42,371 bases of DNA, from contig JAFUYP010000004.1 of the NCBI GenBank assembly GCA_017470535.1, forward strand, positions 1 through 42,371, read 5' to 3'. The position numbers were made by a program, and so were the translations under genes. Shown here in pieces: positions 9,332-26,443 of the stretch. Source of the DNA: Ruminococcus sp. GTDB lineage: Bacteria; Bacillota; Clostridia; Oscillospirales; Ruminococcaceae. Position 1 is the first letter of the stretch, and the number at the start of each line of letters is the position of its first letter. The notes beneath the pieces were generated by a model. The model saw only the letters and a list, made by a program, of their open reading frames with translations, had not been told where the DNA came from and made no database searches.

Positions 9332-9360
9332 TTGACTTTATGCTCGTTTTATGTTAAAAT
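9332..9360 (+). promoter_or_regulatory. Promoter of the Dlt-like cluster
   Basis: TTGACT (9332-9337), exactly 17 bp, then TAAAAT (9355-9360), about 40 bp before the adenylation gene. A perfect 8+8 bp AT-rich inverted repeat (9314-9321 and 9326-9333) overlaps the -35 box and could be an operator. Confidence 0.7.
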
Positions 9361-9400: not shown

Positions 9401-10906
9401 ATGAAAACAGATATTTTAGACAGGCTGGAAAGTACAGCCGCAAAATACAATAAAAAGACGGTCTTTACCGACGAAACGGGGAGCATCAGCTTTTGCGAGC
9501 TGCTTGATAAGGCTAAAAGGCTCGGCTCGGCTTTATGCAAGAAAGTGAGTGCCGGCAGCGCTGTCGCTGTGATGAGCGGCAGGAATGTCCTTACGCCGGT
9601 AACGTTTATAGGTATAGTGTATGCAGGGTGCTATTATGCGCCTATGGACGCATCGCAGCCGGAGGACAGACTGAAAAATATATTGAAGGTATTAAAGCCC
9701 CCGGTGCTTGTAGCCGATAAGGATAATGCAGACAAGGCGAAGGCACTCGGCTTTGAGGGCGAGATACTTTTGTCAGATGATTTTTTTGAAAGTGATATAG
9801 ACGATGATGCGCTTGCGCTCAGGCGTGAAAGAATGTGCATTGATGATCCTTTGTATGTGATATTTACATCAGGCTCTACGGGCAATCCCAAGGGCGTTAT
9901 CACATCAAAGCTCTCGCTGTGCTGCTATATAGATGCGTACAGAGAGGTCATGGGAATAGACGACAGCGACATTCTTGGCAACCAGTCGCCGCTTGACTAT
10001 ATCGCAGCGATAAGGGATATTTACCTGCCGATATTTACCGGTGCGTCAATGTATATTATCCCCAAGCAGTGCTTTGTGATGCCGGCAGAGCTTTTCAAAA
10101 CGCTTAATGACAAGAGGATAACCTCGGTCGGCTGGAGCGTGTCGGTGTTCACTATCGCAGTAAAGGTCGGGGCGTTTGACGGCGCAAAGCCCGAGTTCCT
10201 TAAAAAGATATGCTTCTCGGGGTCAGTGATGCCGTGTAATGTATTAAGGGTATGGCAGGAAAATCTTCCCGGTGCAAAATTTGTAAATCAGTATGGGCCT
10301 ACCGAGTGTACAGCATCGTGTACCTACTATGAGGTAGATCATGTGGTGGCTGATGACGAGGTGCTGCCAATAGGCAAGCCGTACAGCAATTACAGGGTGT
10401 TTTTGCTCAGCGAGGACAATAGGGCTGTGCCTGACGGTGAAATGGGCGAGATATGCGTAAGCGGTCCTATCGTGGCGCTGGGGTACTATAATGCGCCTGA
10501 GCTGACGGCTAAGACGTTTATACAGGATCCGCTCAATACTCTCTACCGTGAGATAATTTATAAGACGGGCGATTATGGTACTTTCCGTGAGGACGGCGTG
10601 CTGCTCTTCAACGGCAGAAAGGACAGGCAGATAAAGCATTTAGGTCACAGAGTCGAGCTGGGCGAGATAGAAGGTACGGCACTAAGACTTGAAAACGTAA
10701 AAGAATGCTGCGCTCTATATCAGAAGGAAAAGGAGCTTATATATCTTTTCTATACAGGAGATGCTTCTGTCAAGGAGATAGCAGGCTTCCTGCGTGGCGT
10801 GCTGCCGGGGTTCATGGTCCCGAGAAAGCTCATAGCGCTTGACGAGATGCCAAGGCTTGCAAACGGCAAGACGGATATGCAGACGCTCAAAGAGTATTTT
10901 AAGTGA
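9401..10906 (+). CDS. DltA-like amino-acid adenylating enzyme
   Basis: 501 residues, the length of DltA (D-alanine:carrier ligase) and a stand-alone NRPS A domain. Motifs are P-loop YVIFTSGSTGNPKGV (about 147-161), NQYGPTECTASCTYYEVD, YKTGDYG, GRKDRQIKHLGHRVELGEIE and the catalytic Lys in NGKTD near the C-terminus. It should activate an amino acid as its AMP ester and load the carrier encoded next. The pocket keeps the Asp (SPLDYIAAI), equivalent to the amino-group-binding Asp of DltA, but reads FSGSVMP where DltA has FCGEVLP. The Cys involved in D-alanine choice is therefore Ser. With the decarboxylase two genes on, I infer a substrate other than D-alanine. Confidence 0.88.
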   Translation: MKTDILDRLESTAAKYNKKTVFTDETGSISFCELLDKAKRLGSALCKKVSAGSAVAVMSGRNVLTPVTFIGIVYAGCYYAPMDASQPEDRLKNILKVLKPPVLVADKDNADKAKALGFEGEILLSDDFFESDIDDDALALRRERMCIDDPLYVIFTSGSTGNPKGVITSKLSLCCYIDAYREVMGIDDSDILGNQSPLDYIAAIRDIYLPIFTGASMYIIPKQCFVMPAELFKTLNDKRITSVGWSVSVFTIAVKVGAFDGAKPEFLKKICFSGSVMPCNVLRVWQENLPGAKFVNQYGPTECTASCTYYEVDHVVADDEVLPIGKPYSNYRVFLLSEDNRAVPDGEMGEICVSGPIVALGYYNAPELTAKTFIQDPLNTLYREIIYKTGDYGTFREDGVLLFNGRKDRQIKHLGHRVELGEIEGTALRLENVKECCALYQKEKELIYLFYTGDASVKEIAGFLRGVLPGFMVPRKLIALDEMPRLANGKTDMQTLKEYFK

Positions 10907-10963
10907 TATAAGCATAAAATAAACGTGGAAATAGGTTAAAGTGAAAGAAAGGACTGAAACAAA

Positions 10964-11197
10964 ATGAAAGAGCAGTTAATGGAGATACTTGAAGAATTAA
11001 GACCCGATGTAGACTTTGAAGCAGAAAAGCAGCTTATCACAGACGGCGTGCTTGACAGCTTTGATATAGTTTCGCTCGTAGGCTCGCTCAATGATGAATT
11101 TGATATTGAGATACAGGTCGGCAACCTCGTGCCTGATAACTTCAACAGCATTGAGGGCATGATGGCGCTTATAGAGAAATTACAGGACGAAGACTAA
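10964..11197 (+). CDS. Acyl/peptidyl carrier protein (DltC-like)
   Basis: 77 residues, acidic and helical, as expected of a carrier protein. The 4'-phosphopantetheine attachment Ser is in DGVLDSFDIVSL (about residue 30-35). It sits directly downstream of the adenylating enzyme and is its likely partner, carrying the activated amino acid as a thioester for later transfer by the MBOAT protein. The start at 10964 follows GAAAGAAAGGA. It resembles DltC in size and position, but a fatty-acid or NRPS type carrier cannot be told apart by sequence alone. Confidence 0.9.
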   Translation: MKEQLMEILEELRPDVDFEAEKQLITDGVLDSFDIVSLVGSLNDEFDIEIQVGNLVPDNFNSIEGMMALIEKLQDED

Positions 11198-11215
11198 AAA
11201 AGGAAACAGATATAA

Positions 11216-12394
11216 ATGAACAAAGATGTACTGTTTAGTGCAAAGGGACACTACAAAACGCCGTGCTATGTTTTCGACACAGATATATTTGAAAGCAGGG
11301 CAAAAAGAGTAAAGCAGGCTTTCGGCAGCAATGTCGGGCTGTGCTATTCTATAAAGGCTGACCCGTTTATGACAGAGTTTGTGCCTGACGTTTTTGACAG
11401 GATAGAGGTCTGTTCTCCCGGGGAACTGAGCATCTGTGAAAAGGTCGGGGCTGACCTTTCAAAGGTTATCTTCTCGGGCGTCAACAAGACATATGAGGAC
11501 GTTGAGAGAGCGTTTAATGACAGGGTGGGCGTTTTCACCGCCGAGTCAAGGCTTCACCTTGAATATATTAACAAAGTGTCACTTGAAAACGGCAGCGTTT
11601 CCAGTGTGATACTCAGACTGTCGCACGGCAGCCAGTTCGGTATAGACGAGAATGAACTCAAAGAGCTTGTAAAAGACCGTGAGCAGTTTAAAGGTGTACA
11701 AATTATCGGTCTGCACTATTTTACGGGGACAAACAAGACCAAAGCAAAGGTAATAGAAAAAGAGCTTGCAAGGCTTGATGAACTGCTTATTTCACTTAAA
11801 AGTGAGTATGGGTTCGAGGCTTCTCATGTAGAGTACGGCACAGGGCTTGCGGTCGAATACTACAAAGACCTTACAGATGAGAGCGACTATGCACTGCTTG
11901 ACGAAGTCGCCCCGGTGATAAGGGCATTTGCGGACAAATATCCGCTGACAGTCGAAATGGGGAGATTTTTCGCAGCGACCTGTGGATATTACCTGACGAC
12001 CGTTATGGATATAAAGCAAAATGACGGCATAAATTATGTTATCTGCGACGGCGGTATCAACCAGCTCAATTATTATGGGCAGAATATGGCAATGAAAGTT
12101 CCGCCGATAGAGCTGCTCGATAATAAAGAGGGGGAAAATACGGACTATTGCCTGTGCGGCAGCCTTTGTACGACTGCTGATATACTGGTAAGAAAGGTAA
12201 CGCTCCCGAAGCTCAGTATCGGTGATACGCTTGTTTTCTCAAAATGCGGTGCATACTCGGTCTGCGAGGGGATAGCGGTGTTCCTGTCACGCTCATTGCC
12301 TGCGGTGTCCGTTTACAGCGAAAAAGAAGGGCTTAGATCGCTCAGAGGGCATTTTGAGAGCTATACCCTCAACTACGGGGGTGGCATAGAGTGA
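11216..12394 (+). CDS. PLP-dependent decarboxylase of the LysA/ornithine decarboxylase (fold III) family
   Basis: 392 residues. The PLP-binding Lys is in LCYSIKADP (about residue 43-51). Downstream are HYFTGTN, VEYGTGLAVEY, EMGRFFAATCGYY (in place of EPGR), CDGGINQLNYY, and a catalytic-type Cys in LCGSLCTTADIL with the CGAYSVCEG segment. The family decarboxylates diaminopimelate, ornithine, arginine and related amino acids. BtrK of butirosin synthesis is a relative that acts on a carrier-bound glutamyl group. Canonical dlt operons lack such a gene. It lies 18 nt after the carrier gene and overlaps the MBOAT gene by 4 bp, so it is integral to this system. The substrate is unknown. Confidence 0.9.
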   Translation: MNKDVLFSAKGHYKTPCYVFDTDIFESRAKRVKQAFGSNVGLCYSIKADPFMTEFVPDVFDRIEVCSPGELSICEKVGADLSKVIFSGVNKTYEDVERAFNDRVGVFTAESRLHLEYINKVSLENGSVSSVILRLSHGSQFGIDENELKELVKDREQFKGVQIIGLHYFTGTNKTKAKVIEKELARLDELLISLKSEYGFEASHVEYGTGLAVEYYKDLTDESDYALLDEVAPVIRAFADKYPLTVEMGRFFAATCGYYLTTVMDIKQNDGINYVICDGGINQLNYYGQNMAMKVPPIELLDNKEGENTDYCLCGSLCTTADILVRKVTLPKLSIGDTLVFSKCGAYSVCEGIAVFLSRSLPAVSVYSEKEGLRSLRGHFESYTLNYGGGIE

Positions 12395-13965
12395 GTTATA
12401 CATCAGTCAGCTTTTTGGCGTTCACGGCGGTATGTATGGTATTATACTACCTCCTGCCAAAAAAGCACCGCTGGTGCGTGCTGCTTGCAGCGAGCATCGG
12501 CTTTTATGCGATAGTGTGCTTAAAGTATATCGCATTTATAATACTTACCGCCATGACTACATACGGCGGCGGCAGGTGGCTGTCAGGCTACATAGAAAAA
12601 ACAGACGCCACCCTTAAAGAAAATAAAAAGACCTGGACAAAAGAACAGAAAGACAGCTTTAAACAAAACGTAACAAAACACAAAAAACTGATATGCGCCG
12701 GTATTCTGATACTCAATTTCGGTGTGCTTTGCTTTTTGAAGTATTATAATATGTTTGCTCTGACGTTTGGAGCGCCTGCTTTAAAGTTGTTTTTGCCGCT
12801 CGGTATATCATTTTATACCTTCCAGTCTATGGGGTATATAATAGATATTTACCGCAAGAAGTTCACGGCTGAGAAAAACCCTTTAAAGCTGTTGTTATTT
12901 GTGAGCTTTTTCCCGCAGATAGTGCAGGGACCTATCAGCTTTTACAGCAGCCTTGCTTCTCAGCTTTATGACGGCAATGATTACGACTTTAAAAATATCA
13001 AAGAAGGCGTGCTTCTCATATGCTGGGGCTTTTTCAAGAAGATGATAATAGCAGACAGGCTGGTCGCCGGTATCACGACGATAACAGAGGGGTATAAGGA
13101 ATACTCCGGTACGCTTGTGCTTGGTGCGGCGGTCATCTACGCTTTGCAGCTTTATGCTGATTTCTCGGGCGGTGTTGATATTTCAAGGGGCGTGTCACAG
13201 CTGTTTGGGATAGATCTTGCTGAGAATTTCAGACGTCCGTATTTCTCACGCAGTATTTCCGAATACTGGCGCAGGTGGCATATCACCCTGGGCGCATGGC
13301 TCAAGGAGTATCTGTTCTATCCGATAGCTATGAGCAAGCTGTTCATGAACTTCTCAAAGAAGCTCAAGGCACGCTTTGGCATGAAGATAGCAAAGGTACT
13401 GCCGGTAAGTATAGCATCGCTTATCACGTTCGTTATAATCGGCGTGTGGCACGGTGCTAACTGGAAATATGCTGCTTTCGGCGTGTGGAACGGCGGTATC
13501 ATAATGATCTCCACGCTGCTTGAAGAACGCTTCGGGATAATAAAAGAAAAACTTAAAATAAAGAATGAAAATAAACTGTTTATAGCGTTCCAGATGATAA
13601 GAACGTTCCTTGTGGTGCTGGTCGGGTACTTCTTCGATATAGCAGCTGATTTTACATCTGCTATGGAGATGATGGCAAAGAGCATCTATGATCTTCATAT
13701 CACGGAGATATTCACAAGGAGATTCTACGAGGTCATCGGCTTACCGATAAGAGAGGTGCTGCTGGTGCTTTTGATGACAGGTGTGCTGCTTTGGGTATCT
13801 ATCTGGCAGGAACGCCATAAGGACACGACTCTTCGTGCAGAGATATGCAAAAAGGGCTATGCAGTCGAGTGCCTGGTATTCCTGTTGCTGTTTTTCTCGG
13901 TAGTGGTGTTCGCATCATACGGACCGGGCACTGATCCGGCAGACTTTTACTATATGCAGTTTTAG
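12391..13965 (+). CDS. MBOAT family membrane acyltransferase (DltB-like, GTG start)
   Basis: 524 residues with about ten to twelve membrane segments. Family motifs are YTFQSMGYIIDIYR, FFPQIVQGPI, EYWRRWHITLGAWLKEYLFYP and GVWHGANWKYAAFGVWNGG, which carries the conserved His. DltB-type MBOAT proteins take an acyl group from a cytoplasmic carrier protein and pass it across the membrane for attachment to a surface polymer. The GTG at 12391 overlaps the decarboxylase stop (GTGA) and follows a G-rich ribosome binding site. A polar, Lys-rich insert at about 70-95 lies between early helices. AlgI-like O-acetylation is the alternative, but the carrier gene favours a Dlt-type donor. Confidence 0.9.
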   Translation: MSYTSVSFLAFTAVCMVLYYLLPKKHRWCVLLAASIGFYAIVCLKYIAFIILTAMTTYGGGRWLSGYIEKTDATLKENKKTWTKEQKDSFKQNVTKHKKLICAGILILNFGVLCFLKYYNMFALTFGAPALKLFLPLGISFYTFQSMGYIIDIYRKKFTAEKNPLKLLLFVSFFPQIVQGPISFYSSLASQLYDGNDYDFKNIKEGVLLICWGFFKKMIIADRLVAGITTITEGYKEYSGTLVLGAAVIYALQLYADFSGGVDISRGVSQLFGIDLAENFRRPYFSRSISEYWRRWHITLGAWLKEYLFYPIAMSKLFMNFSKKLKARFGMKIAKVLPVSIASLITFVIIGVWHGANWKYAAFGVWNGGIIMISTLLEERFGIIKEKLKIKNENKLFIAFQMIRTFLVVLVGYFFDIAADFTSAMEMMAKSIYDLHITEIFTRRFYEVIGLPIREVLLVLLMTGVLLWVSIWQERHKDTTLRAEICKKGYAVECLVFLLLFFSVVVFASYGPGTDPADFYYMQF

Positions 13966-13994
13966 CAGGCGATTGTTTAGGAGGCAAACGAAAA

Positions 13995-15092
13995 ATGACA
14001 AAAAAACGTGCAGTCAAGCTCATCGCACTTTTTGTGATGACGGCTGCGATATATCTGTTTTTGCAGTGGTTTCTGATAAGAACAAGCCCCACGACAGAAT
14101 ATCATATAAAGAACTTTTTCAAAGAGCCGGATAATTCTATGGACGTGGGTTTTGTAGGCGCAAGCGAGATGTATGCGGACTATTCGCCGCCGCTTGCCTA
14201 TAAAAAATACGGTTTTACCGGATATAACTTCTGCTTTGAGGGCGCACCCGGACAGCTTTATAATGCTATGATAGACGTGTATCTCGATCACCAGTCGCCG
14301 CAGCTTATGGTGATCGAGATAAATGGCTTTCTGTATAAGGAGTGGTATGCCGAGAGAGATGCAAATTATCAGAGGTTCATAGATAATCTGCCGTTCTCGC
14401 TGAGAAAGTTACAGATAATACATGACTACGTTGACGAGGATGACAGGATCAACTATTATGTGCCTATGGTATCATATCACTCAAACTGGAAGGGTCCTGT
14501 ATTTCAGAGCGGCAGGGCGCTGGCACTTTTTAAAAACAGTTTCAGTGACTACTCAATGACAAAGAGCCTTGGTACAAGGTCTACCACTGAGTCGCAGAGG
14601 GCAGTGCTCAGAAGATATAAGAAAAAAGACCAGATCACCGACTGGGGGCTTGAAGAACTTCGCAAAACAGTCGCTCACTGCAAGGAAAAGGGAATAGAGA
14701 AGATACTCTTTATAAGAGCGCCGCATAAAGCGCCGATGCCTAAAAAGACTGTTAAACAGATCCGTGAGATCATCGAGGGCGCAGGGTATGATTTTTTAAA
14801 CTGTGAGCGAAAGATCTCGGAAGAGATAGGCATTGATGAAAGCACCGACTACTATAATGACGACCACCTGAATGTATTGGGGTGTGAAAAATTCACCGAC
14901 TACCTCGGAAACTACATAATGACCAACTATGATATTACCACCGACCATAGCGAAAAGATAGACAAAGAGTGGGAAGAGTGCGCTGATTATACACAAAAGG
15001 TGTTTGATGAGATAAAACCTCTTACCTTTGAAAACGAGGACGAGCTTTACTATGAGATGAATGTTGACAGGCTCGTCAAAAAAGAAGACTGA
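13995..15092 (+). CDS. DltD-like / SGNH-type membrane-anchored protein
   Basis: 365 residues. One N-terminal membrane segment (about 8-27) is followed by an extracellular domain. The region DVGFVGASEMYADYSP (about 51-66) looks like the nucleophile-Ser block of SGNH/DltD enzymes, and DYYNDDHLNVLG (about 287-298) supplies the Asp and His. DltD or AlgJ-type proteins work with MBOAT partners to attach groups to teichoic acids or other glycans outside the cell. A clear AGGAGG lies 10 nt before the ATG at 13995. It is the last gene of the cluster, followed by a strong terminator. The polymer acceptor is unknown. Confidence 0.83.
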   Translation: MTKKRAVKLIALFVMTAAIYLFLQWFLIRTSPTTEYHIKNFFKEPDNSMDVGFVGASEMYADYSPPLAYKKYGFTGYNFCFEGAPGQLYNAMIDVYLDHQSPQLMVIEINGFLYKEWYAERDANYQRFIDNLPFSLRKLQIIHDYVDEDDRINYYVPMVSYHSNWKGPVFQSGRALALFKNSFSDYSMTKSLGTRSTTESQRAVLRRYKKKDQITDWGLEELRKTVAHCKEKGIEKILFIRAPHKAPMPKKTVKQIREIIEGAGYDFLNCERKISEEIGIDESTDYYNDDHLNVLGCEKFTDYLGNYIMTNYDITTDHSEKIDKEWEECADYTQKVFDEIKPLTFENEDELYYEMNVDRLVKKED

Positions 15093-15097
15093 TATTT

Positions 15098-15126
15098 CCC
15101 CCTGCAAGCCGCAGGGGTGTTTTTTT
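15098..15126 (+). terminator. Terminator of the Dlt-like cluster
   Basis: CCCCTGC (15099-15105), a 5-nt loop, GCAGGGG (15111-15117), then TGT and a run of six Ts. It closes the 9401-15092 operon. Confidence 0.9.
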
Positions 15127-15209: not shown

Positions 15210-15256
15210 AAATTAAATAGATGATACTTTAATAGGGTAATGAGGTGAGGGAATAT

Positions 15257-17437
15257 ATGGGAAAGCGGCTGCTAAGCTGGTTCGGTATCAAAGAAGAGAA
15301 CGAAACCATGATGAAAAAATATCTCTATGAAGCTAATATGAGATCGAGCATATATATGTCGGTGCTTGTTATCGTACTTGAAATGTGGATGATAATAAGA
15401 ATGACCCGTACTATCATACAGGACGATCTGTATGATCTTTTCTGGACGCTTACAGAAAAGTATTATGCAAACTATTTCCTGCTTCTGAGTGCAGGCTTGC
15501 TCATGCTTTTGTATGCGATGAGGGCTTTGTACGATCACCGCAAATGCAGATACTTAGCTGTCGTGGTGATAGCGTTCTGTGCGGCGGTGTGCGTGTTTGA
15601 GGTGTGGATGATCTCTAAGTATTCATCAGCTTCAAGGACTATCTCCGATCTTCAGAACTATATCCTGCTTTTGTGCGCCGGTATCGGTATAATAGGCTTT
15701 GCTGTGATACTTCTAAAAAACGGCGAGGATAAAAAGTGGGAGAGCTTGTCGGTACTGTATATATTCTCGCTCGTATGTATAAATTTCGGTATCGTTATTT
15801 CCGCAAACAGCTTTAAAGAGGGCGGTCAGATACTTACGTTCCTGACAATGGAGCTGTTTGTTATATGCCTTTTGACGTGGCGTCCTTATGTGGGCTTTAT
15901 CGTACTGACTGTATCTTATCTTCTGTTCTATTTTAAGATAGACCAGATGATAGACCTTAATACTGTAAAGAAATTCGAGGGCGTTATTGATTTCTCCACT
16001 ATCCCGACAGGGCTTGGTGACGGCATCAAGATAAACGGCTTTACTATGTGGCTGTCAACGCTTTTGCTCTGTATCAGCAACTATAACAAGATAAAACTTC
16101 AGGCGCAGAAGGACGAGAGCCTGCTCAAAGTAAACTCCTACCTTTCAAAGATCTCGGTAGAGGACGAGCTTACCGGCATACATAACATGGTGTATTTCCG
16201 CAGTGAAGCAGATAAGCTGATGAACTATGTTACTACCGATAAGGAAAATTCGGTATTTCTGTTTTTTGATATAGTGGGCTTTAAATTCTATAACGAGAAG
16301 TACGGCTTCCACGCAGGCAATGAGCTGCTCAAAAACGTAGCCACGATGATAGAGCAGCGCTTTACCAAATCATTGGTGTCGAGATTTTCAGACGACCATT
16401 TTGTGGTGCTTACTAAATATGATGGCTGTGAGGGCATAGTCAAAGACCTGTGCGAAAAGATACACGGGCTTGAACGTGAGCTGCACCTGTCTTTAAAATG
16501 CGGTGCTTACCGCCCGGGTGATGATGAGCATGACCCGTCACTGTGCTGCGACAGGGCAAGATTTGCCTGCAACAGTATCAAGAAGGATTATGCCACTGAT
16601 TTCAGGCTTTACGATAAGGCACTTGAAGAAGAGTTCCGCCTTAAACAGTATATCGTCAACAATATCGACACAGCTATCGAAAAGGGTTACATCAAGGTGT
16701 TCTACCAGCCGGTAGTTTCAGTTGAGGACGGCACTATCGTAGGGCTTGAAGCTCTTGCAAGGTGGAAAGACCCTGAATACGGTCTGCTGCCTCCGGGGGC
16801 ATTCATAGAAGTGCTTGAAGAGTACAGACAGATACATAAGCTCGATTCCTGCATAATCAGGCAGGTATGCCGGGAGTACAGGAGGGCATATGATAACAAG
16901 CTGCCGTTCGCACCGGTGTCTATCAACTTCTCACGGCTTGATTTTGAGCTTTGTGACATAGTGAATGTGCTAAAAGATCATGCGGCAGAGTTTTCAGTAC
17001 CGCAGAATTATATCGACGTTGAGGTGACAGAAAGTGCGCTGACTGATAAGCAGGATCTGTTGAAGGCTGCACTTGTCAGACTCAAAGAGCTGGGTTATAA
17101 GGTTTGGCTCGATGATTTCGGCAGCGGTTATTCGTCACTTAATGTTTTGAAGGACTATCAGTTTGACGTACTGAAAATTGATATGAAGTTCCTCTCCGAC
17201 TTTGACAGGAACGATAAATCAAGACCTATACTTGATAATATAGTCGAGCTTTCAAAGAAACTTGGTATGGTATCCCTCACCGAGGGCGTTGAGGACGAGC
17301 GGCAGTATGAATTTCTTGATTCTATCGGCTGTAAAATGGCGCAGGGCTATCTGTTCTCAAAGCCTGTACCGATAGATGATCTGAGAGAGCGTATCTATAA
17401 GGGCGAGCTTAAGATCAACGACAAATATATGAAATGA
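15257..17437 (+). CDS. Membrane GGDEF-EAL protein, probable c-di-GMP phosphodiesterase
   Basis: 726 residues. Hydrophobic segments span about 25-290, consistent with six or seven membrane helices (MASE-like sensor). A GGDEF domain (about 310-450) and an EAL domain (about 470-720) follow. The GGDEF signature is degenerate (RFSDDHFVVL), so cyclase activity is unlikely. The EAL domain is intact: LEALARW, VEVTES, LDDFGSGYSS, LKIDMKFL, TEGVE. I infer hydrolysis of c-di-GMP under membrane-sensed control. The ATG at 15257 is preferred because GAGGTGAGG lies just before it; a GTG at 15245 is an in-frame alternative. It stands alone between two terminators. Confidence 0.9.
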   Translation: MGKRLLSWFGIKEENETMMKKYLYEANMRSSIYMSVLVIVLEMWMIIRMTRTIIQDDLYDLFWTLTEKYYANYFLLLSAGLLMLLYAMRALYDHRKCRYLAVVVIAFCAAVCVFEVWMISKYSSASRTISDLQNYILLLCAGIGIIGFAVILLKNGEDKKWESLSVLYIFSLVCINFGIVISANSFKEGGQILTFLTMELFVICLLTWRPYVGFIVLTVSYLLFYFKIDQMIDLNTVKKFEGVIDFSTIPTGLGDGIKINGFTMWLSTLLLCISNYNKIKLQAQKDESLLKVNSYLSKISVEDELTGIHNMVYFRSEADKLMNYVTTDKENSVFLFFDIVGFKFYNEKYGFHAGNELLKNVATMIEQRFTKSLVSRFSDDHFVVLTKYDGCEGIVKDLCEKIHGLERELHLSLKCGAYRPGDDEHDPSLCCDRARFACNSIKKDYATDFRLYDKALEEEFRLKQYIVNNIDTAIEKGYIKVFYQPVVSVEDGTIVGLEALARWKDPEYGLLPPGAFIEVLEEYRQIHKLDSCIIRQVCREYRRAYDNKLPFAPVSINFSRLDFELCDIVNVLKDHAAEFSVPQNYIDVEVTESALTDKQDLLKAALVRLKELGYKVWLDDFGSGYSSLNVLKDYQFDVLKIDMKFLSDFDRNDKSRPILDNIVELSKKLGMVSLTEGVEDERQYEFLDSIGCKMAQGYLFSKPVPIDDLRERIYKGELKINDKYMK

Positions 17438-22585: not shown

Positions 22586-22860
22586 TAAAACTCTGAAAGC
22601 TGCTTTTGCATTATCTCTATCTTGCGTTTGAGCGGTGAAACATAATGATCCACCTGACTTTTGTTGTACCCGGGCTTTGATTCCTTGATAGGTGCAAAGA
22701 ACGCCGGCTTTAACAGCAGCATATCGAACGGCTCGCCCTGCTGTTTCTGACTTAGCGCCGTTTCGAGCCTTTCTTCAAGCTCTTCGAGCTGATCTATCTG
22801 TATCAGCGTGTCAGCGGTGTCGTAGCCGCCGTCAAACGAGATCGCAAAATTCTTATCCAT
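22585..22860 (-). CDS. Small DivIVA-like coiled-coil protein
   Basis: 91 residues. A predicted coiled coil lies in the middle (QIDQLEELEERLETALSQKQ). The C-terminal part, GYNKSQVDHYVSPLKRKIE, resembles the start of DivIVA/GpsB domains (GY...EVD.F...). The normal order is reversed, since the motif is usually N-terminal. The ATG at 22860 lies within the last codons of the 1196-residue signalling protein (8-bp overlap), after AAGGTGAT, so translation is coupled. It may be a localisation or interaction partner of that signalling protein. The family call is tentative; the reading frame is credible because of the coupling and the terminator that follows. Confidence 0.6.
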   Translation of the reverse strand: MDKNFAISFDGGYDTADTLIQIDQLEELEERLETALSQKQQGEPFDMLLLKPAFFAPIKESKPGYNKSQVDHYVSPLKRKIEIMQKQLSEF

Positions 22861-25800
22861 ATATCACCTTTCCACTTTCCTGCTCGTCGAGCATTTTGGC
22901 AAATCTCTGCGGCGTTACCGCACTGGAGTAGTAGAAGCCCTGTGCCATGTCGCAGCCGCAGGAGCGTAAAAAGTCTGCCTGCTCCCGTGTTTCAACACCC
23001 TCTGCGATAACATCGAGCCCTATGTCGAGCGCCATAGAAATGATATGCTCGATTATCTTTTTACCTCTTTCGCTGCTCATTGAGCTTGAAAGGAATTTCG
23101 TGTCTATCTTGATGACATCAAATGGTGTGGATTTGAGCGACCCGAGCGATGAATACCCCGACCCGAAGTCGTCCATAAGCAGCTTGTACCCATCGTCACG
23201 GGCAGCGACTATCGCTTCATTTGTGTTTACATTTTCGATAGTTTCGGTTATTTCAAGTTCGATGTATTTTTTGTCTATGCCAAAGTCGTTTATCAGCGAA
23301 TCAAGCAGCATAAGATAATCATTGTCAGATAAATGTATCCTTGAAACGTTCACCGATATAGGCACAGCCTGCTTGCCGTCTTTAAGCCGTTTGCTTATGT
23401 ATTCGCAGGCTTTGAGCCACATATACTCATCTATCTTGACGATAAAACCGTTTTGCTCAAATATCGGTATAAAGTCATTTGGCTGCATGAGCGAGCTGTC
23501 TGTCTGCTCCCACCTTACCAGCGCTTCCGCACCGATTATCTTCCCGGTGGATATGCTTATCTTAGGCTGTAAGTACATCTTGAACTCATCGCCTGCAAGC
23601 GCCTGACGCATATTGTCCTCTATCATCTTCTTGTGGGTGATAGATGCACGCAGCTCCTCATTGTAAAAACCAATGTTTAGCAGCGCATTGCCCTTGACGG
23701 AGTTTCTCGCAATATTTGCACAGTCTGACATATACCTTGCAGGCAGCGCCTTGTCGCTTACTAAGTATACGCCAAAGGTGAACGAATACTTGATGTTCTT
23801 GTACCCTATCATGCCGTTTTCGAGCTTTCTTATAAAGCTGATTATATCCTCCATGTCCGTGTATGACATCACCAGCACGAATATGTCAGACCCCAGCCTT
23901 ACATAAGGCTTTGAATCATCGCAAAGCCCGGCAAGAACGTCATTTATATGCTCTATTATCTCGTCGCCGGCTTCAACGCCGTAGACCTCGTTTACCGTCT
24001 TGAACTTTGCAATATCGAACTGAATGAACGCAAATTGCCCGTCGCTCTTGTCAAACCTTGACCTTACAGCCTCGGAGAATATGTGATACCCTATGTCGCC
24101 CTTGTAGGAGGAGAGTATCTTCTTTTCCATTATCTCACGCTCTGTCAGCCTGTGAACGTGACCTACCGCCTCTGTGACCCTGCGTTCGTTCTTGCGAAAC
24201 AGCAGACTCATCCTGTACCATTCATACCCCAGCTCACCCTTGAGCCTGAAATTGATAGACAGCTTTTCATCATTCATGCCTGACTCTATTCCCTCACGCA
24301 CCCTGCCTATCATGATGCGGTAGTTGGAAATATCCTCCGGGTGCATAGCACCGCTTTCAAGCAATGCGGTTATCGGATCGTAGACCTCTGAGTTAAGCTC
24401 CGGCAGAAGATAGCTGTTAGACGCCGTCGTCCAGTTGCCGGAAATATAGTTTATATAGAAGTATACCTCGCTGCCGTCATTGAGCAGCAGCTGTGTCAGC
24501 CGGCTGCGGTAGTTGTCCTGTGTGGTCGAGCGGTCGTCACTTATGCGCGGTGTGGTCTTTTTAAGGCGCTTTGCCTTGTACATCTTGATGTCTGCACGCC
24601 TGAGCGCTTCGTCGATGCTTATGCCCTCTTCGTTGAGCGGCTCATAGCCCGAGCTTAAAGCTATCTTGTAGGGAAATCTTCCGCCTGAGTTGATCCTTTC
24701 AAGCTCCTGGTGGAACTGCTCTGTCATATCGTTGGCAGTAACACCCTCGCTCAGCTCCATGATAACAGCAAACTCATCGCCGCCGAACCTTGCACATACA
24801 GCCCCCTCGCCGGAGATCTTGACCAAGGTATCAGAAATAGCCTGTATCGCCTTGTCGCCCTCGATGTGCCCGAAGGTATCATTTATGAATTTCAGCCCGT
24901 CCATATCAATAGAGAATATGACAGCGCTCTTTTTGTCCTTCCTGCACTTTTTCAGAAGCTGCAGGGCATACTTGTAAAAACCACGCCTGTTGTATATGCC
25001 TGTCAGTGCATCTCTTATGTGCATCTCTTCCAGCACAGCATTTGCGTGCTCTAAGTTTATGCGGCTCTTGTAGTTTTCAAGTATCTGGTTTGTGTTTGAT
25101 ATAAACCTGTGTATGTTTTTGAGATTTAACTTGTCGTCATCAAAATCAAACGCTATATATCCTATTACCTCGCCGATAAAATGCAGCGGCGTAAAGAATA
25201 TCGAATTGTATTTTTCAAGCGCCGATGAAAGATCGGGCAGCAAAGTCTTTATCGGGAAATTAACAGGCTTGTCACCGATCCTCATGCCCTTCATCTCGCA
25301 AAGCAGCGTCATCTCACCCGTAAAATGCTCAAAGCTCCTTACAGGGTCTTTGGCGGCAGACAGGAAATCCGAATTTATGCAGCACCATGTGTGATGATAG
25401 TCTGAATGTGACAGCATAAGCTCGATAATATCTTCAATATCTTTGCACTCCACGGATTTTGATATGTAGCCGAACATATGCTTCTCGTGCGAATCATACA
25501 CGGTCGTCATATCATAAAGCTCTATTATCTTGTCGCCTGCGACCTTGCCCGATCTGTCGCCGCAGCCGCAGCTGTCAGTCAGGTCGAGCCTGTAAGGGAT
25601 AACTTTTTTGACAGGCTCCGTGTAGCCGCCCAGTGCAAAGCTGATCATGCCCAGTACAGTTTCACCGAGCAGCTCGATGTCAGGTGCTGCTGTGGTGATG
25701 TTTGGCACATAGTAGTGCTGTAACTGTATACCGTCAAAGCCTGTCACAAGCATATCGTCAGGGACATTTATCCCGTGCTTTCTGAGGACCTGACAGCAGG

Positions 25801-26443
25801 TTATCGCCATTGTGTCATTGCAGCATATTATAGCCTCCGGCAGAGGCTTGCCTGACGCTAAGAACTCCTCTACGACCCTTTCAGTCGGCTGGTTCCAGAA
25901 ATCGCCGTAGCCTAACCTGTCCTCCTCAAACGGTATATTGTTTTCTTTGAGTACCTTCTTGTAAACATCTATCCTTGCTTCGGAAAACTCATTTCCCTTG
26001 AAGCCTGCGATAAAATTCGTTCTTCTGCACCCGTGATACTCTATTATGTGGCGGACTATCTGCTCAAAGGTGTTGACATAATCAAAGGTGATGCTCGAAC
26101 AGCCCTCGCAGTCCCTGTCAACGCTTATCACCGGGATATTCATGCGCTTTGCATCAGCTATGATAGAATCAGACACAGTATCGGACTTTATAGCTTCAGG
26201 CAGAATGACAAGAGCATCTATAAGCCCTGTGTTTATCAGCTTGAAGATACTCGCCGCCGCTCTTGTAAAAAGAGAATCAATGTACATATCATCAAATGTC
26301 GAAAAAAGCATGACTTTCATGCCGCACTGCTCAGCGTGACGGCAGATGCTTTTTATGATATCATGTACAAGCTCCTCCTGTACACCGCATACGCACATAC
26401 CTATTATTTTGTATTCCTTGCCTGTTGCCTTATCAATATACAT
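22853..26443 (-). CDS. Soluble sugar-binding-domain / GGDEF / GGDEF / EAL signalling protein
   Basis: 1196 residues with no membrane segment. Residues 8-290 form a LacI-C-terminal-like (periplasmic-binding-protein fold) sensor: GLIDALVILPE, IPVISVDRDCEG, PEAIICCNDTMAI and MLVTGFDGIQ. There is no DNA-binding helix-turn-helix before it. A GAF-like region (about 310-460) follows. GGDEF-1 is canonical (ARFGGDEFAVIM, about 553). A PAS-like stretch (about 640-760) precedes GGDEF-2, which is degenerate (RLGSDIFVLVM, about 850). EAL (about 955-1185) is intact, with EALVRW, LEITET, MDDFGSGYSS, IKIDTKFL and AEGVE. It could both make and hydrolyse c-di-GMP in response to a cytoplasmic sugar. The ribosome binding site is GGAGGAG. 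Confidence 0.9.
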   Translation of the reverse strand: MYIDKATGKEYKIIGMCVCGVQEELVHDIIKSICRHAEQCGMKVMLFSTFDDMYIDSLFTRAAASIFKLINTGLIDALVILPEAIKSDTVSDSIIADAKRMNIPVISVDRDCEGCSSITFDYVNTFEQIVRHIIEYHGCRRTNFIAGFKGNEFSEARIDVYKKVLKENNIPFEEDRLGYGDFWNQPTERVVEEFLASGKPLPEAIICCNDTMAITCCQVLRKHGINVPDDMLVTGFDGIQLQHYYVPNITTAAPDIELLGETVLGMISFALGGYTEPVKKVIPYRLDLTDSCGCGDRSGKVAGDKIIELYDMTTVYDSHEKHMFGYISKSVECKDIEDIIELMLSHSDYHHTWCCINSDFLSAAKDPVRSFEHFTGEMTLLCEMKGMRIGDKPVNFPIKTLLPDLSSALEKYNSIFFTPLHFIGEVIGYIAFDFDDDKLNLKNIHRFISNTNQILENYKSRINLEHANAVLEEMHIRDALTGIYNRRGFYKYALQLLKKCRKDKKSAVIFSIDMDGLKFINDTFGHIEGDKAIQAISDTLVKISGEGAVCARFGGDEFAVIMELSEGVTANDMTEQFHQELERINSGGRFPYKIALSSGYEPLNEEGISIDEALRRADIKMYKAKRLKKTTPRISDDRSTTQDNYRSRLTQLLLNDGSEVYFYINYISGNWTTASNSYLLPELNSEVYDPITALLESGAMHPEDISNYRIMIGRVREGIESGMNDEKLSINFRLKGELGYEWYRMSLLFRKNERRVTEAVGHVHRLTEREIMEKKILSSYKGDIGYHIFSEAVRSRFDKSDGQFAFIQFDIAKFKTVNEVYGVEAGDEIIEHINDVLAGLCDDSKPYVRLGSDIFVLVMSYTDMEDIISFIRKLENGMIGYKNIKYSFTFGVYLVSDKALPARYMSDCANIARNSVKGNALLNIGFYNEELRASITHKKMIEDNMRQALAGDEFKMYLQPKISISTGKIIGAEALVRWEQTDSSLMQPNDFIPIFEQNGFIVKIDEYMWLKACEYISKRLKDGKQAVPISVNVSRIHLSDNDYLMLLDSLINDFGIDKKYIELEITETIENVNTNEAIVAARDDGYKLLMDDFGSGYSSLGSLKSTPFDVIKIDTKFLSSSMSSERGKKIIEHIISMALDIGLDVIAEGVETREQADFLRSCGCDMAQGFYYSSAVTPQRFAKMLDEQESGKVIYG

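Follow-up and report, generated by a model that had tools for sequence, protein, structure and literature searches.

D-alanylation of the Dlt type is known to affect how cells are charged at the surface and how sensitive they are to cationic peptides. In other systems a carrier protein serves the decarboxylation of an acidic amino acid: this holds for VinN/VinL/VinO and FlvN (PMC11284099), for BolO/BolC/BolN, where it is partly proposed (PMC7756342), and for BtrK, which acts on glutamyl-BtrI (PMC7857480). Systems of the PatA/PatB type, according to PMC12148441, use acetyl-CoA and have no carrier protein. We analyzed a window of 42,371 nucleotides (the whole stretch under study) from a Ruminococcus sp. 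draft genome that is 76% complete (assembly GCA_017470535.1, contig JAFUYP010000004.1). It contains five genes, here termed A, C, K, B and D, that probably constitute a surface-aminoacylation system in which glutamate or aspartate is loaded on the carrier C, decarboxylated there, and moved out by B and D. A first-pass annotation of the window had proposed that the operon attaches a decarboxylated amino acid, for example gamma-aminobutyric acid (GABA) or beta-alanine, to a surface polymer. This proposal is supported in part: the analysis favors carrier-linked, BtrK-like decarboxylation feeding surface acylation by an MBOAT and an SGNH protein, the likely group being GABA or beta-alanine, and a conserved five-gene set.

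The five genes are co-oriented on the plus strand and tightly packed, with intergenic gaps of 57, 18, -4 and 29 bases; the negative value reflects the four bases that K and B share (12391-12394), and the positions and overlap in the first-pass annotation are borne out. Gene A (9401-10906) encodes a stand-alone amino-acid adenylating enzyme of 501 residues that falls outside the DltA clade, and C (10964-11197) a carrier protein of 77 residues with its phosphopantetheine Ser32 in a DSF motif. The K product (11216-12394; 392 residues) is a pyridoxal phosphate (PLP)-dependent decarboxylase with an alanine-racemase fold, of the BtrK kind. B (12391-13965), which begins with GTG, encodes an MBOAT acyltransferase of 524 residues, and D (13995-15092) a membrane-anchored SGNH-fold protein of 365 residues. 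A, K and B match their Pfam families above the gathering score, and C scored 20.2 against the Pfam carrier model, just under the cut-off of 20.8, with the phosphopantetheine serine retained.

A scan of species genomes based on K yielded 54 loci, whose neighboring genes were labeled with family profiles. A and C each occur near K in 51 of these loci, B in 29 and D in 26; the loci lacking A (L030, L059, L063) or C (L059, L061, L065) each have a contig end no more than 2.6 kb from K on one side. Among the 17 nearest loci (K identity 61-75%; mostly Ruminococcus, R. albus among them) the order A-C-K-B-D is found in 16, and the remaining one, L022, reads A-C-K-B as far as its contig end. More distant loci are arranged as D-B-A-C-K (four), A-C-B-D-K (two), B-A-C-B-D-K (one) or B-K-A-C-B-D (two), or have cut and other forms. 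K was also found in 7 of 196 genomes of the class, picked independently of gene order and including the source genome of the window; of the other six holders, all from other genera, five from three families (f2, f5 and f53) carry A-K-C-B-D and one (L087) carries A-K-C only. Within the genus, six of seven genomes have K, including all three that are at least 90% complete, and in a family sample of one genome per genus K was detected (E <= 1e-70) in 1 of 61, the source genome only. The gene set is patchy, yet stays together where present. The first-pass annotation had named the five-gene order in relatives as a check, and the set indeed recurs across species, genera and families. Many of the K-locus records come from rumen and gut.

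The proposed pathway has four steps. First, A would adenylate an acidic amino acid at its side-chain carboxyl. The substrate is most likely L-glutamate (gamma-carboxyl) and otherwise L-aspartate (beta-carboxyl), and the activated residue would be loaded on the phosphopantetheine at Ser32 of C. K would then, as its relatives and active site suggest, decarboxylate the residue on the carrier at its free alpha-carboxyl, which would yield the thioester of an omega-amino acid, GABA-S-C or beta-alanyl-S-C. By analogy with PatA and DltX, B would carry this group across the membrane to Tyr521 in its FxYxxF tail, a motif that is present in the protein. Finally D, given its modeled fold, would take the group from the tyrosine and esterify an exported polymer with it, which would contribute positive charge.

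The evidence for the first step lies in the pocket of A. In residues 199-205, DYIAAIR (9995-10015, plus strand), Ile201 replaces the usual amine-binding Asp, and the conserved Arg205 stands four residues further on; a basic pocket residue is found in all 56 A enzymes examined. Side-chain-carboxyl adenylating enzymes of the VinN type are marked by the pattern Asp230, Ser299 and Arg331 (VinN numbering); A has a conserved basic residue and a serine at pocket positions of its own. A reading of the Asp shift in A as a copy of VinN Asp230 was dropped, that VinN residue being the ordinary Asp. Fold comparison matched A to adenylation folds of the nonribosomal peptide synthetase (NRPS) type, DltA included, and did not indicate the substrate. 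The same genome also encodes, on contig C50 (L008, L009), an NRPS-like open frame of 1986 residues with two adenylation-domain matches.

For the second step, a search with the profile of the K family ranked BtrK (1.5e-60) ahead of SbnH (4.4e-54) and LysA (5.7e-46), and in a phylogenetic tree BtrK sided with 27 K sequences against LysA with support of 100/98; since BtrK is represented by a single row, the tree separates the two sides without defining a rooted clade. For the later steps, B carries two C-terminal membrane helices that are additional to those of DltB (residues 447-474 and 487-514 in a simple hydropathy scan), followed by the sequence FYYMQF (13945-13962, plus strand), which fits the FxYxxF acyl-shuttle motif and includes Tyr521. 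All 35 B family members whose rows reach the C terminus retain YxxF, and 26 of the 35 retain the full FxYxxF. These features make B a PatA-type MBOAT to which the acyl shuttle is fused. D has no Pfam match, and a profile search against PDB sequences gave nothing usable; its structure model has an SGNH fold, and Ser57 and His291 are invariant in 20 aligned rows.

The same trio of adenylating enzyme, carrier and decarboxylase occurs in other settings. Among the loci with neither B nor D, 16 have the order A-K-C and 6 the order A-C-K. In Lachnospiraceae, A-K-C adjoins genes for a hexapeptide transferase, a DegT aminotransferase, a UDP-GlcNAc 2-epimerase, a glycosyltransferase-like protein and EpsG, identified for one representative per cluster, which marks these loci as polysaccharide clusters. 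Such clusters (L039, L041, L043, L044, L047, L048, L053 and similar) suggest an amino-acylated amino sugar. Elsewhere (L045, 1875-2705; L054; L055) a gene for an aminoglycoside-3-N-acetyltransferase-like protein, itself preceded by one for a DUF4910 protein, lies directly before A-C-K; this protein could be an acyltransferase that uses the carrier-bound group. In both settings the carrier-bound group appears to serve as a glycan decoration. Because the trio also sits in polysaccharide clusters, our guess is that the target of the five-gene system is an exported polysaccharide rather than a teichoic acid.

Several observations weigh against the proposed surface-aminoacylation system. In 25 of the 54 loci, some of which lie close to the end of a contig, the trio of A, K and C is present with neither B nor D; with many of these in polysaccharide clusters, the product of K is not always used by an MBOAT. 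Nor is the shuttle tail special to the five-gene system, since three of the four other MBOATs of the source genome (L002, L003, L004) also end in FxYxxF (FIYFRF, FLYFRF); several acylation systems may coexist there. The catalytic Asp of the SGNH triad of D is not pinned down. The substrate of A is predicted from aligned pocket positions. A second class of A enzymes (33 of 56) keeps an Asp at the usual position, and the amino acids accepted may therefore differ between the classes. Searches with the single K protein place LysA level with or above BtrK, the three values being about equal (LysA 2.8e-26, SbnH 2.8e-26, BtrK 7e-26). Lastly, no second LysA was seen in the source genome, at its 76% completeness, or in genomes G004 and G210, so that by gene content a lysine role for K is compatible with the source genome and G210.

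Of the alternative explanations, one retains the genes and the end product: K would make free GABA or beta-alanine from free glutamate or aspartate, and A would then activate the finished omega-amino acid. The Asp-retaining class of A enzymes would suit such a substrate. We nonetheless consider this route unlikely, in that the closest characterized relative of K works on a carrier-bound residue, and the basic pocket residue of all 56 A enzymes would find no carboxylate to pair with on GABA or beta-alanine. Also against it, VinN rejects the decarboxylated acid (PMC11284099) and beta-alanine fails to rescue a bolN deletion (PMC7756342).

It is likewise rather unlikely that the acyl group goes to a small molecule, a lipid or a protein, or is joined as an amide to a sugar nucleotide inside the cell, with B and D served by another donor. 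The transferase, aminotransferase and epimerase genes next to A-K-C in loci without B and D would fit that arrangement; in the window and in 16 of the 17 nearest loci, however, B and D directly follow K. Also against it, the only shared flanking genes identified among those 17 loci are FeoB-like (five loci) and isocitrate/isopropylmalate-dehydrogenase-like (six loci), both confined to R. albus-like loci.

A further alternative, which the first-pass annotation had also entertained, is that K is a diaminopimelate (or lysine/ornithine) decarboxylase and that the operon attaches lysine. The best family match of K alone is indeed NCBIfam lysA (TIGR01048), at 177.1 bits, but this is far under the cut-off of 297.9. 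According to PMC7857480, decarboxylases of diaminopimelate and polyamine precursors bind the far amine of the substrate through an acidic residue beside the catalytic Cys, and diaminopimelate decarboxylase binds the far carboxylate through an Arg of the specificity helix. K has neither of these residues: its catalytic Cys318 is followed by Thr319 (12167-12172, plus strand; Cys-Glu in LysA), and its specificity-helix motif, YYGQNM, lacks the Arg, whereas all five aligned LysA-like proteins of relatives have Cys-Glu and the Arg. The LCT and YYGQNM motifs are kept in 55 of 55 K rows; more distant rows vary (YFGQVM, and one LCS). A separate LysA-like gene was found in eight of the nine holder genomes that are at least 90% complete. 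By group, such genes occur in five of seven genomes of the genus (all three of the most complete), at 272-294 bits in a six-frame search, slightly under the cut-off, and in five of six other holder genomes, two of them over it. A LysA-clade gene even lies 1.7-2.6 kb downstream of K in three loci (L029, 8933-10243; L032, 8868-10163; L030, 4109-5563), with a phosphoglucomutase-type gene between. On these residues and family comparisons K is not a LysA, and its family groups with BtrK; despite the three genomes in which no other LysA was seen, a lysine-attaching operon is improbable, and this part of the first-pass annotation is not supported. As a separate observation, the K sequence of L057 (5992-9264) and L062 (5992-9336) continues into a fused extension of about 700 residues, and L061 is similar in length. 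In L057 and L062 the extension has a hydrophobic segment together with Rib/Ig-like matches and a domain resembling transglutaminase, joining a cytosolic decarboxylase to an apparently extracellular module.

The set had been called Dlt-like, which is apt insofar as the general gene roles match those of DltA, DltC, DltB and DltD; at the level of families the likeness ends, with all four proteins missing the Dlt models and B being of the shuttle-fused PatA type. Control Dlt proteins were taken from true clostridial dlt loci. Against the DltA model (TIGR01734; cut-off 559.85) A scored 246.8 bits and one control DltA 565.4. This cut-off is strict, since only one of the eight true-looking DltA proteins in the class sample (8 of 196 genomes) exceeds it, and their range of 501-566 bits is still far above A. 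B scored 157 bits against the DltB model (TIGR04091; cut-off 375; one control 500.4), and C 22.6 bits against the DltC model (TIGR01688; cut-off 52.35; one control 58.3, which itself reached 66.6 against NF003464, cut-off 68). None of 20 D members matched PF04914 (DltD), which three clostridial DltD proteins matched at 263-342 bits (the comparison alignment had six rows, three of them checked against Pfam), and an identification of D as DltD by sequence was rejected. A tree built from 66 A enzymes unites the 56 linked to K in one group (98/99), apart from seven DltA, although a long-branch warning makes its depth uncertain, and the pocket positions of A differ from those of the seven true DltA.

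A separate true dlt operon had also been proposed as something to look for. No DltA over the cut-off was found in the seven genomes of the genus or in nine holder genomes, a result that says little because such DltA are rare in the class. True-looking DltA (8 of 196) and K (7 of 196) share no genome, which is uninformative, as just 0.3 joint cases are expected by chance. An ordinary D-alanylation operon with a decarboxylase gene present by chance would fit the broad gene roles and the lack of another DltA above the cut-off in the genus, but is highly improbable given these scores, the separation of K-linked A enzymes from DltA, and the presence of both A and C beside K at almost every locus. 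Judged by the models and the tree, the set is not a dlt operon.

The surroundings of the operon are as follows. A TG-extended promoter-like site, TTGACT-17-TAAAAT, lies upstream of A (9332-9360, plus strand), and a hairpin with a T run resembling an intrinsic terminator follows D (15099-15117, plus strand). One promoter and one terminator for all five genes, as the first-pass annotation had it, are therefore plausible rather than proven, because both sites are consensus matches and the scan yields about twice the numbers expected from shuffled sequence (34 promoter-like sites against 19.6 expected, and 16 terminator-like sites against 8.5). On the 5' side are a phenylacetate-CoA-ligase-like gene and an ACT-domain gene; used as queries, their products labeled no open reading frame in the 54 related loci, the flanks of which are short. 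A GGDEF-EAL gene follows on the 3' side. The window encodes two such proteins (15245-17437, plus strand; 22853-26443, minus strand), the second with a periplasmic-binding-protein-like part.

The individual parts of the proposed system, carrier-bound decarboxylation and MBOAT-SGNH acylation with a tyrosine shuttle, are known. In the literature searched, which comprised open-licence PMC papers, no description of the two combined in a conserved operon was found; this does not imply absence from print. We lean towards a new class of cell-envelope modification, in which an omega-amino acid would be made on a carrier and esterified to an exported polymer by a shuttle-fused MBOAT, the A-C-K trio being re-used for amino-acylated sugars; the group would be GABA in the A class of the window and possibly beta-alanine in the other class. 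If so, an MBOAT with a fused shuttle would be fed by a carrier, contrary to the published generalization that such systems have none, the acyl-tyrosine shuttle model would extend to carrier-borne amino acids, and BtrK-type decarboxylases would gain a role in the cell envelope. Lineages of Clostridia seem to own an independent route to a Dlt-like end with a different, non-chiral group, and ester-linked GABA or beta-alanine would be a concrete chemical marker in the cell walls of these bacteria. In automatic annotation we expect these genes to appear under the misleading names dltA, dltB and lysA.

The system shares features with several described ones. Like Dlt (DltA/DltC/DltX/DltB/DltD), it combines a stand-alone adenylating enzyme, a carrier, an MBOAT and an SGNH-fold protein in one operon, with the donor on the carrier; unlike Dlt, it includes a PLP decarboxylase, B itself bears the acyl shuttle and exceeds the seven DltB compared by 129-143 residues, and the pocket of A differs. 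With PatA/PatB-type O-acetylation it has in common an MBOAT with two extra helices and a C-terminal FxYxxF and an anchored SGNH partner, but here an adenylating enzyme, a carrier and a decarboxylase belong to the same operon. The two enzyme types of A and K also recur in the exosortase-A-associated pair ligase_PEP_1 (TIGR03098) and dCO2ase_PEP1 (TIGR03099), although A (162 bits) and K (163 bits) score far below the respective cut-offs of 592 and 478 bits. BtrK, of butirosin synthesis, is the closest solved relative of K by profile and decarboxylates a glutamyl thioester on the carrier BtrI; K forms a separate group with its own specificity-helix motif. An adenylation-domain enzyme also stands here in place of the loading enzyme BtrJ, which is an ATP-grasp protein. 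Finally, the Vin, Flv and Bol cassettes for beta-amino-acid starters likewise join an adenylating enzyme and a free-standing carrier to a PLP decarboxylase whose substrate is a carrier-bound acidic amino acid, but they feed polyketide or peptide products in Actinomycetes or Burkholderia, whereas here the trio is found with a surface acyltransferase in Clostridia.

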